Below, in pieces: positions 44,721-47,290 of a stretch of 64,000 nt of DNA (positions are counted from its first letter, which is position 1; the number at the start of each line of letters is the position of its first letter). The notes below the pieces were generated by a model, which did no database searches, had not been told where the DNA came from, and worked only from the letters and a program-made list of their open reading frames with translations. Where the stretch lies: the NCBI GenBank assembly GCA_017467805.1, contig JAFUKJ010000048.1:17257-81256 (forward strand). The letters are read 5' to 3'. The stretch comes from Lachnospiraceae bacterium. Lineage in GTDB: Bacteria; Bacillota; Clostridia; Lachnospirales; Lachnospiraceae. The translations under genes and the position numbers were made by a program.

Positions 44721-46760
44721 ATGAAACCAGAATGGAAAGATTTTGTAGGTGGCAAATGGGAATCAGAAATCAACGTACGTGATTTCATTCAGAAGAACTT
44801 CACTCCATATGATGGAGATGAGTCATTCTTAGCTGGTCCTACACAGAACACAAAGGATTTATGGAACATGGTTCTTGATCTTCAGAAGCAGGAGAGAGAA
44901 GCAGGCGGTGTACTTGATATGGACACTAAGGTTGTTTCTACTATCGTTTCTCACGGACCAGGATACCTTGACAAGAGCAAGGAGACAATCGTTGGATTCC
45001 AGACAGATAAGCCTTTCAAGCGTTCATTACAGCCATACGGCGGTATCAGAATGGCAGAGAAAGCTTGTTCAGACAATGGATATGAAGTAGATCCAGAGAT
45101 TAGTGAGTTCTTCTCTACACACAGAAAGACACACAACGCTGGATGTTTCGATGCATACAATGATGAGATGAGAGCTTGCCGTTCTTCACACATCATCACA
45201 GGTCTTCCAGATGCTTACGGACGTGGACGTATCATCGGTGACTACAGACGTGTTGCTTTATACGGTATTGACAGACTTATCGAGGATAAGCTTGCACAGA
45301 AGGATTCTACAGGAAAGGTTATGACAGATGATGTTATCCGCCTTCGTGAAGAGATTTCTGAGCAGATCGTTGCTCTTAAGCAGATGAAGGTTATGGCAGC
45401 TTCTTATGGTTGCGATATCTCTAAGCCAGCTTCTAACGTTCAGGAAGCTATTCAGGCTACTTACTTTGGTTATTTATCAGCAGTTAAGGAGCAGAACGGT
45501 GCTGCTATGTCATTAGGACGTACATCTACATTCCTTGATTGCTACGCTCAGAGAGACTTAAAGAACGGAACATTTACAGAGGAGCAGATTCAGGAGTTCG
45601 TAGACCACTTCATCATGAAGTTACGTTGCATCAAGTTTGCTCGTACACCTGAGTACAACCAGATCTTCGCTGGTGACCCAGTATGGGTAACAGAGTCATT
45701 AGGTGGTGTTGGTGTTGACGGACGTCCATTAGTAACAAAGATGTCATTCCGTTACTTAAATACATTATCAAACTTAGGCGCTTCTCCAGAGCCAAACTTA
45801 ACAGTTCTTTGGTCTCCAAGACTTCCAGAAGCTTGGAAGAAGTACTGTGCTAAGATGTCTATCGAGTCATCTTCTATCCAGTACGAGAACGATGAAATCA
45901 TGAGAGTTGATCATGGTGATGATTACGCTATCGCTTGTTGTGTATCTTCAATGGTAGTTGGTAAGGAAATGCAGTTCTTCGGAGCACGTGCTAACCTTGC
46001 TAAGTGCTTACTTTACGCTTTAAACGGTGGTGTTGATGAGGTTACTAAGAAGCAGGTTGGTCCTAAGTACCGCGCTGTTGAAGGTGACGTTCTTGATTAC
46101 GATGATGTTATGAGCAAGTTCACAGACATGATCGAGTGGCAGGCAGGTGTATATGTTAATACTCTTAACATTATCCACTACATGCATGACAAGTACTGCT
46201 ACGAGAGAGCAGAGATGGCTCTTCATGATAGAGATGTTAAGCGTTACTTCGCTACAGGTGTTGCTGGACTTTCTATCTGTGCTGACTCATTATCAGCTAT
46301 TAAGTATGCTAAGGTTGAGGTTGTTCGTGACGAAGACGGTATCATCGTTGACTTCAAGACAACTGGCGAGTTCCCTAAGTATGGTAACGACGATGACCGT
46401 GTAGACTTAATCGCTCAGGAGCTTGTTACAAAGTTCATGACAGCTGTAAGAAGACATCATACTTATAGAAACGGTATCCCTACAACATCTATCCTTACTA
46501 TTACTTCAAACGTAACATATGGTAAGGCAACAGGTAACACACCTGATGGACGTAAGAAGGGACAGCCATTCGCTCCAGGTGCTAACCCAATGCACGGACG
46601 TGATACTCATGGTGCTGTAGCTTCATTAGCTTCAGTTGCTAAGCTTCCATTCAAGGATGCTCAGGACGGTATCTCTAATACATTTACTGTTATCCCAAGC
46701 GCACTTGGTAAAGAAGCTAAGGTATTCTCAGGAGACCTTGAGATTGACTTAAACAAATAA
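44721..46760 (+). CDS. pflB: Pyruvate formate-lyase catalytic subunit lacking the glycyl-radical domain
   Basis: Splits pyruvate with CoA into acetyl-CoA and formate. The 679 residues follow Pfl closely, including Ile-Ala-Cys-Cys-Val-Ser with Cys406-Cys407 and Thr-Gly-Asn-Thr-Pro-Asp-Gly-Arg-Lys. The chain stops where E. coli Pfl continues into the C-terminal radical domain; the usual Arg-Val-Ser-Gly-Tyr is absent and is encoded separately at 47048-47290. AGGAGG precedes ATG 44721. Codons are of the highly expressed kind. The enzyme must form a complex with the free radical domain to work (inference). Confidence 0.95.
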
Positions 46761-46784
46761 TATAGGAAGGGCTAGGTGTATTCT

Positions 46785-46988
46785 ATGGATAAGCAATCAA
46801 TGATTGATGACTTAGTAGCACAGCTTGACGCTGGATTTACAAAAGATGTTGGTCATTTTAATGTCACCGTCGATGAATCAGCAGTTGAATCGAGAGATGT
46901 GCAGACATTAGGATGCACCGACTGTTCCAGAACTCCCCTGGCATGTAGTGTACCAACACTGCATCAGGGACTAGAGGACTACGAATAA
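46785..46988 (+). CDS. Small Cys-containing protein resembling the start of the glycyl-radical domain
   Basis: The 67 residues begin like the radical-domain protein next door: Asp-Asp-Leu-Val-Ala-Gln-Leu-Asp versus Asn-Asn-Leu-Val-Ala-Leu-Leu-Asp, then Gly-His-Phe-Asn-Val-Thr-Val versus His-His-Leu-Asn-Val-Asn-Val. The second half differs: Cys44-Thr-Asp-Cys47 and Cys54, then Pro-Thr-Leu-His, instead of the Gly loop. It may bind a metal or Fe-S cluster, as small subunits of benzylsuccinate synthase do. It is intact, has its own ribosome-binding region (AGGAAGGGC) and sits 24 bases behind pflB. GTG 46776 is an alternative start. No family recognised. Confidence 0.72.
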
Positions 46989-47047
46989 TTCTTATTCGAC
47001 ACTCTGGGAATAGATTGAATAAAATTATTATAGGAGGTAATACTACA

Positions 47048-47290
47048 ATGGCTGATAATGCAATGCAGATCAACAACTTAGTAGCTTTATTAGATGGTTA
47101 TATCGTTAAGGGCGGACATCATCTTAATGTTAACGTTCTTAGCAAGGATACATTATTAGATGCTCAGCAGCATCCAGAGAATTATCCACAGTTAACAATT
47201 CGTGTTTCAGGATACGCTGTTAACTTCATTAAATTAACTCCGGAACAGCAGGCAGATGTAATCTCCCGTACATTCCACGAGGAATTTTAA
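47048..47290 (+). CDS. Free glycyl-radical domain of pyruvate formate-lyase
   Basis: The 80 residues equal the C-terminal domain of Pfl: [15 protein letters not shown]55-Tyr, and the ending Ile-Ser-Arg-Thr-Phe. Gly55 should carry the radical after activation by PflA. AGGAGG is 9 bases before ATG 47048. YfiD/GrcA-type proteins look similar but serve as spares; here pflB lacks its own domain, so this one is probably essential. Confidence 0.93.

Follow-up and report, generated by a model that had tools for sequence, protein, structure and literature searches.

A Split Pyruvate Formate-Lyase with a Probable Glycyl Radical Domain in trans

Pyruvate formate-lyase (PFL) holds a central place in anaerobic fermentation and is destroyed by oxygen, which cleaves the radical domain. 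In PFL1 (TIGR01255; E. coli PflB, PDB 1h16) this glycyl radical domain (GRD) belongs to the same chain as the catalytic Cys-Cys pair, and a separate protein with the same RVSGY domain is known as GrcA/YfiD (TIGR04365; PDB 6owr) and, in T4, as Y06I. One study reports that YfiD works in trans on cut PFL in E. coli, and that PFL residues 696-733 matter for activation of the YfiD-PFL complex (PMC8683613); according to another, E. coli carrying PflB-G734A produces formate when GrcA is present but not in its absence (PMC12338860). A 64,000-nucleotide stretch of a Lachnospiraceae bacterium genome (GCA_017467805.1, contig JAFUKJ010000048.1, positions 17,257 to 81,256; hereafter the window) encodes a PFL in separate parts: a catalytic chain without a GRD, a free GRD protein, and between them a small Cys-containing protein of no named family.

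Small Cys-containing partners are encoded with other glycyl radical enzymes, among them the beta and gamma subunits of benzylsuccinate synthase (BSS), the gamma subunit of 4-hydroxyphenylacetate decarboxylase (HPAD) and the beta and delta subunits of MASS. Such accessory subunits carry [4Fe-4S] or Fe, a role as gates of the GRD has been proposed for some of them, and MASS beta is described with four Cys ligands in the pattern CX2CXnCXnC (PMC12358834). The window's middle protein has no sequence match to these subunits; unlike them it has a GRD-like N-terminal half, and in place of four Cys ligands it has three cysteines, two of which are invariant among 13 diverse members.

Two earlier traces suggest that others have met parts of a split PFL, which is therefore not wholly new. 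One is the NCBIfam model NF038360 (GrcA3), considered below. The other is a pair of PDB entries named “Formate acetyltransferase,” 38la and 38lb (687/739 residues), which match the window's catalytic chain and give no match to the free GRD even at E 10; in 38lb the tail reads PDCACA (letters taken from a weak alignment), like the Cys tails found elsewhere in the order. These are either natural split PFLs or cut constructs, 38lb resembling the tail type. Under neither entry did PDB sequence searches turn up a partner resembling the middle protein or the free GRD. In the literature searched, with subscription papers mostly outside it, no split PFL or middle protein was described in the titles and abstracts found, no paper contained the name GrcA3, and none since 2025 linked 38LA or 38LB with pyruvate formate-lyase. 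PFL is a known enzyme, here in a new arrangement, and the surprising and testable element is the Cys module.

The Split Enzyme of the Window

The catalytic chain, encoded by pflB (44721..46760, plus strand; 679 residues), scores 711.6 bits against PF02901, reaching the end of the model, and 1084.2 bits against TIGR01255 (cut-off 994.2), here over positions 2-665 of 744; of the Gly_radical model it covers the first 50 of 106 positions only. Its adjacent cysteines Cys406-Cys407 are present and RVSGY, which TIGR01255 expects on the same chain, is absent. The free GRD (47048..47290, plus strand; 80 residues) begins where the catalytic chain stops, at PF01228 positions 50-106, aligns to E. coli PFL 677-757 and has Gly55 in the RVSGY glycyl radical motif of GrcA/YfiD; its ribosome-binding site, AGGAGG, is read from the sequence at 47032..47037 (plus strand). 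In its score, its Cys-Cys pair and its adjoining pflA the locus resembles PFL1, and it differs in that the chain ends at model position 665 and the radical domain is a separate protein. A preliminary description of this DNA, made from the sequence alone, had claimed a PFL in two pieces, a catalytic subunit with Cys406-Cys407 that stops before the radical domain and a free 80-residue radical protein with Gly55 and its own AGGAGG. Both pieces are as it described them and the split stands; the number of parts does not, as a third conserved open reading frame (ORF), the middle gene (46785..46988, plus strand; 67 residues), lies between them and was missed.

Which family does the free GRD belong to? 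Its best-scoring model is NF038360, with 152.9 bits over 75 of 78 positions, just under the cut-off of 158. In a draw of 295 genomes of the order, that cut-off is passed by free-domain homologs in at least 48, and the listed above-cut-off matches are the free domains of split PFLs, except in genome G301. Against TIGR04365 it reaches 97.7 bits (cut-off 170), aligned to model positions 66-125 of 126 only, and 60 residues align to 6owr (E 9.3e-24). The likeness to GrcA/YfiD thus lies in the RVSGY domain and, presumably, in action in trans on a PFL catalytic chain. The differences are that the window protein has 80 residues against 127 in the E. coli type, lacking the N-terminal half, that it is encoded beside a PFL without a GRD, and that no intact PFL which it might repair was found in its 95%-complete genome. 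The name GrcA3 speaks of repair, whereas the window's domain is the only one found for its enzyme, and to annotate it as a “spare part” would probably be a mistake in this case.

The preliminary description had named a second full-length Pfl as the only active enzyme of the genome as a finding that would refute its reading; no second PFL of the PFL1 type was found, though in a 95%-complete genome one might have escaped. The sole other PF02901 match, on contig C47, was considered as a second PFL and rejected: it is a protein of the PFL2/dehydratase type with its own GRD, a radical SAM gene alongside (by eye) and the active-site stretch GCVEP, the single-Cys pattern of dehydratases. Neither was a further free GRD found elsewhere in this genome. 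As no other PFL1 or free GRD was found, the natural reading, from sequence, is that the free GRD would be obligatory. The suggestion that a free domain allows quick replacement of oxygen-cut domains is a hypothesis. It fits the extra free GRD genes that lie on other contigs in 14 of the 17 same-genus genomes checked, out of 38 other genus members sampled (G009, G010, G012, G017, G020, G021, G023, G024, G027, G029, G031, G033, G035, and G038, with two extra genes besides the operon copy in G029); the window's genome, however, holds one copy only. Genome G024, with 8% contamination, also contains a second, partial catalytic chain of the split type (C77:4-1926) and a second free domain (C138:931-1221).

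The Middle Gene

The middle protein has no match in Pfam, NCBIfam or PHROGs, and a phage or plasmid origin was rejected, as collections of both gave no match at E 0.001. A PDB profile search with the family gave no credible match, two weak ones (interleukin-31 and a designed protein) being dismissed as chance. When the two profiles are compared, residues 3-33 of the middle protein align with residues 4-34 of the free GRD (probability 94.2%, E 1.2e-7), and the N-terminal half scores 41.1 against the GRD profile where 50 column shuffles reached at most 15.2; the N-terminal half therefore descends from a radical domain, and by combined alignments it corresponds roughly to E. coli PFL 678-713. The C-terminal half alone does not match the GRD profile and is either new or too diverged to be recognized. 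It contains Cys44, Cys47 and Cys54, with a DC-x6-C core and the stretch ACSVPTLH. Thirteen diverse middle proteins all share M1, D15, G23, H24, V39, D46, C47, A53, C54, and P57 (window numbering).

The gene is under purifying selection, with a median ratio of nonsynonymous to synonymous substitution rates (dN/dS) of 0.111 (81 sequences, 276 pairs; here and below, pairs with dS of 0.2-1.5), and at all 21 fully invariant residues (M and W excluded; 81 sequences) codons vary synonymously only. A pseudogene reading of the ORF was judged unlikely on this selection. The two flanking genes have medians of 0.064 (catalytic chain, 65 sequences) and 0.07 (free GRD, 80 sequences).

Conservation and Distribution of the Split

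A first sample of 99 related genomes included 39 of the genus, the window's own being counted in each; a middle-gene homolog is present in 44 of the 99 and in 34 of the 39. Around the middle matches in the related genomes, 39 of 43 loci have the order catalytic chain, middle gene, free domain; the exceptions are L038, where the contig ends before the catalytic chain, and L047 (G050), L040 (G044), and L041 (G040), which are weighed below. Six aligned middle proteins, used to scan a genome collection, gave at least 354 stretches encoding a relative, the best 80 of which form the set of named loci. Their titles nearly all name Lachnospiraceae or genera of that family, three going no further than Bacillota, Clostridiales or uncultured bacterium; carriers include Acetatifactor muris, Kineothrix alysoides, and Lachnospiraceae bacterium 28-4. 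A split catalytic chain lies 5′ of the middle gene in 80/80 named loci (about 16 chains being cut at their start by contig ends), and a free domain 3′ in 79/80, L099 stopping at a contig end. The full-length split chains have ACCVS at the catalytic pair in 65 of 65 and the chains end alike (VFxGDxxxDL). A Shine-Dalgarno-like core precedes 58 of 64 catalytic chains and all 79 free GRD homologs.

In the order-level draw, 42 of the 295 genomes (own included) have a strong middle match, taken as E 3e-13 or better. The catalytic match ends close to position 665 of 744 in every one of them, running longer only by read-through of the stop (to at most 686, and to 707 in G089); in G060 and G201 it is present as contig fragments only. 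All 42 have a separate GRD match and none has an intact PFL1. A split with a free GRD occurs in at least 53 of the 295, comprising these 42, 10 whose catalytic chain carries a Cys tail and one, G247, with neither. The other 242 genomes have no full-length middle match listed, only partial ones that fall nearly all on the starts of radical domains. Beyond the counted genomes, G244 has a GRD frame of 94 residues.

Of 398 genomes drawn across the phylum, only the window's own and G100 match the middle model at E 1e-5. With a threshold of E 1e-24, 120 of the 398 match the GrcA3 model, with short frames only in G000 (113 residues) and G100 (85 residues); the matches in G380 and G549 are frames of 198 and 252 residues, probably at contig ends, and the remainder are frames of 740-880 residues, that is, intact PFL. 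Short frames being so rare, at this threshold the split is a trait of the order rather than of the phylum at large.

The preliminary description had held that the split is not a frameshift, and here it was right. A frameshift, stop-codon or assembly artifact of a normal PFL has the adjacency of the pieces in its favor and nothing more, and was rejected on the 80/80 named loci and the order sample (at least 53 of 295); the shared chain end and the free domain's own start and Shine-Dalgarno-like core leave it a negligible probability. That this is a split PFL with a GRD acting in trans is very probable from sequence, and the three-part enzyme of the window's lineage and the two-part enzyme with a Cys tail elsewhere in the order are real and conserved.

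Cys Tails and the Cys Module

Among the split PFLs of the order sample that lack a middle gene, 10 of 11 catalytic chains end in a Cys motif. The tails are EECGNQACNIPN in G285, LECGVDSACAIPN in G317, DCACCEP in G330 and G342, and DCLCCEP in G187, G203, G294, G211, G241, and G329; as the six DCLCCEP genomes share one genus, the ten are not ten independent cases. The G285 tail resembles the C-terminal end of the middle protein (TECMGGDQACRIPT) of G102, its nearest neighbor in the tree, and this likeness suggests that the two sequences share an origin; such a reading covers the G285 tail, the short CxCC tails standing outside it. The 20 intact PFL chains read end in the radical domain with no Cys module, and a middle gene and a Cys tail occur together in none of the split systems read. 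In the first sample, G040 has neither an adjoining middle gene nor a Cys tail, yet keeps an unlinked middle gene. A regular expression for the motif within the last 60 residues matches one of 120 window ORFs, the middle gene, and none of 538 other ORFs of the named loci (PFL-, GRD- and middle-like ORFs excluded), counts that are descriptive since the expression was written after the motif had been seen. Taken together, the sequences indicate that the Cys module is quite likely a functional part of the split PFL. Since the tail-type chains have the Cys motif and no GRD-like half, the Cys motif would be the working element and the GRD-like half a handle.

The middle model also gives weak partial matches at G309:C11:23171-23266, G273:C3:26024-26152, and G201:C117:31964-32089, in genomes that have a pfl-linked gene as well; these are possibly further paralogs.

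Evolution of the Catalytic Chains

A midpoint-rooted tree was made of 48 catalytic chains, the partial chain of L039 (G041) having been dropped. One group (Shimodaira-Hasegawa-like approximate likelihood ratio test, SH-aLRT, 99) holds all 28 split chains together with two intact chains, G301 and G185, and stands apart from 18 other intact chains. A clade of the 28 split chains without G301 and G185 is rejected by the approximately unbiased test (p-AU 0.004), for a group that was defined by architecture and whose nesting had been seen beforehand. The most economical history has a single split and a single re-fusion, with several independent splits as a possible alternative. The 6-kb stretches inspected around the intact pfl genes of G301 and G185 showed no Cys module. 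Beside the catalytic pair, positions 398 and 410 are H and S throughout the group, G301 and G185 included, and W/Y and A in the 18 intact chains outside it; H398 and S410 mark the clade and not the split. A run of three cysteines at the active-site pair (ICCCV) occurs in 12 of the 20 intact PFLs read, on one branch of the tree (L179-L184, L187, L188, L190, L191, L194, and L195).

A Possible Mechanism and Its Alternatives

How might such an enzyme work? The GRD would be made as a separate, obligatory small protein of the GrcA3 kind, PflA would put the radical on Gly55, and the loaded domain would dock into the open socket of the 679-residue chain and pass the radical to Cys406/Cys407. The middle protein would be a third part of the same enzyme: its N-terminal half, copying the first helix and strand of the GRD, would probably be a docking handle, and its C-terminal half would present the conserved Cys pair at the place of the glycine loop. 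Its most likely role, tentatively, is that of an accessory gate or cap at the GRD socket that helps to load and activate the free domain; alternatively, the cap might shield the open active site while the GRD is absent. As the window chain ends before the region equivalent to E. coli 696-733, this lineage may load its free GRD differently, and the middle protein, a partial copy of that region, suggests itself as a candidate loading or gating partner.

The free GRD could instead be an ordinary GrcA/YfiD repair protein with a normal PFL encoded elsewhere. It does match GrcA-type models, further unlinked copies exist in many same-genus genomes, and repair of PFL by GrcA/YfiD in E. coli is described (PMC8683613); with no intact PFL1 in the source genome or in the 42 middle-gene genomes of the order, a catalytic chain lacking its GRD adjoining in 80/80 loci and the N-terminal extension of the E. 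coli type absent, this is very improbable. Hardly more credible is the middle ORF as a decaying remnant of a former C-terminal domain left after the split. Homology of its N-terminal half to the radical domain, the reading frame that it shares with the catalytic chain in the window, its shortening in G050 and absence in G247, and a Shine-Dalgarno-like core in only 62/80 would all suit a remnant. They are outweighed by purifying selection with synonymous-only variation at invariant residues, by a specific C-terminal half that matches no radical domain, by presence in several families of the order and by retention as an unlinked gene in G040.

Other roles for the middle protein deserve more weight. 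One is a metal or Fe-S accessory subunit of the kind found in benzylsuccinate synthase and 4-hydroxyphenylacetate decarboxylase, which would affect solubility or would open and close the active site. Such subunits, too, are small Cys-containing proteins whose genes accompany that of a glycyl radical enzyme; they bind [4Fe-4S] or Fe and have been put forward as GRD gates (PMC12358834), and several lineages have three Cys (CxCC tails, GCxxC..AC motif). The two invariant Cys, against the four ligands of MASS beta, and the lack of a credible PDB sequence match make this role rather unlikely. Much the same standing belongs to a thiol quencher or redox latch that docks in place of the GRD, its Cys pair reducing the radical or shielding the catalytic Cys in a reversible rest before oxygen cutting. 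A GRD-like docking half joined to a Cys motif with two invariant Cys at the glycine-loop place would suit a latch, as would full-length middle matches confined, in the order sample, to split-PFL genomes and the middle gene not being seen in the stretches around the pfl genes of G301 and G185, intact PFLs nested in the split clade; the Cys motif of tail-type chains, present without the docking half, speaks against it. A more elaborate form is somewhat less likely still: the middle protein as a dummy radical domain that competes with the free GRD for one socket, holding a closed, oxygen-safe and reversible resting state or quenching by thiol until PflA-loaded cartridges return, with the Cys tail as the same switch in cis.

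Several observations weigh against a GRD in trans with a Cys accessory module near its socket. G247 has a split PFL with neither middle gene nor Cys tail, and the tail-type chains lack the GRD-like half, which is thus dispensable in some lineages. The Shine-Dalgarno-like core stands before 62/80 middle ORFs as against 79/79 free domains, the window's own being weak. In G050 (L047) the middle ORF is shortened, ending after DCAK, that is, after the first motif Cys. In G040 (L041) the gene lies away from pfl (2195-2398), beside a MoxR-like ATPase gene, and in the 67%-complete G044 (L040) it lies on the minus strand (2149-2388) near a CheC-like gene with no PFL seen, both neighbors being identified by eye. 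Two AlphaFold2 runs on joined chains gave mean predicted local distance difference test (pLDDT) scores of 50.5 and 53.9, a low confidence that perhaps reflects shallow alignments of close relatives; PDB fold searches with the second model, over a library of entries up to 2026-04-08, had hits chiefly to PFL, other glycyl radical enzymes related to it and class III ribonucleotide reductases; these have no bearing on docking, and 38la and 38lb are absent among the matches listed. In the E. coli work, a chain cut at a similar place, residue 695, with YfiD carried 32-fold less radical than one cut at 733 (0.5 vs. 15.9 μM), and with truncated YfiD, the pair most like the window's, 2.7 μM (PMC8683613), yields which imply that a GRD in trans loads poorly on some such chains. 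With these points counted, the reading as a whole, a GRD in trans with a Cys accessory module near the GRD socket, is given a probability of about 0.6.

A lineage of gut and rumen bacteria with a separate radical domain offers a ready-made system in which to study docking, activation and exchange, steps that are hard to separate in single-chain PFL. A separate radical-bearing part could make the fragile part replaceable, and the Cys protein or Cys tail is a concrete candidate for loading, gating or protection of a catalytic chain that is open by nature. Nor should the large chain by itself be regarded as a complete enzyme.

Neighboring Genes and Signals

The free GRD is followed by a likely intrinsic terminator (47314..47343, plus strand; AACCCCGG, a 9-base loop, CCGGGGTT and a T-rich tail), found by eye and not listed by an automatic scan whose maximum loop was 8. 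Beyond it lies pflA (47367..48116, plus strand; 249 residues), encoding the PFL-activating radical SAM enzyme (TIGR02493, 288.4 bits, cut-off 231.75). Upstream of pflB, a promoter-like TTGACG-18-TATAAT (44579..44608, plus strand) agrees with the consensus at 11 of 12 positions; the 14 promoter-like sites in the region do not exceed shuffled sequence (mean 12.5, sd 4.0). A 4Fe-4S ferredoxin of 56 residues is encoded 3′ of the pfl genes (48286..48456, plus strand; NF058577, 80.7 bits, cut-off 65) and is a possible electron donor of PflA; this neighbor is conserved, with a match in 60 of the 80 named loci, several of which end early at contig ends. Just 5′ of pflB and divergent from it is a gene for a 64-residue DUF1858 protein (44250-44444, minus strand; 84.5 bits) with a weak ScdA_N match, a homolog of which occurs in 47 of the 57 named loci that have at least 800 bases 5′ of pflB. 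On the other side, 3′ of the pfl cluster, a MerR-family regulator is encoded convergently (48547-49254, minus strand).

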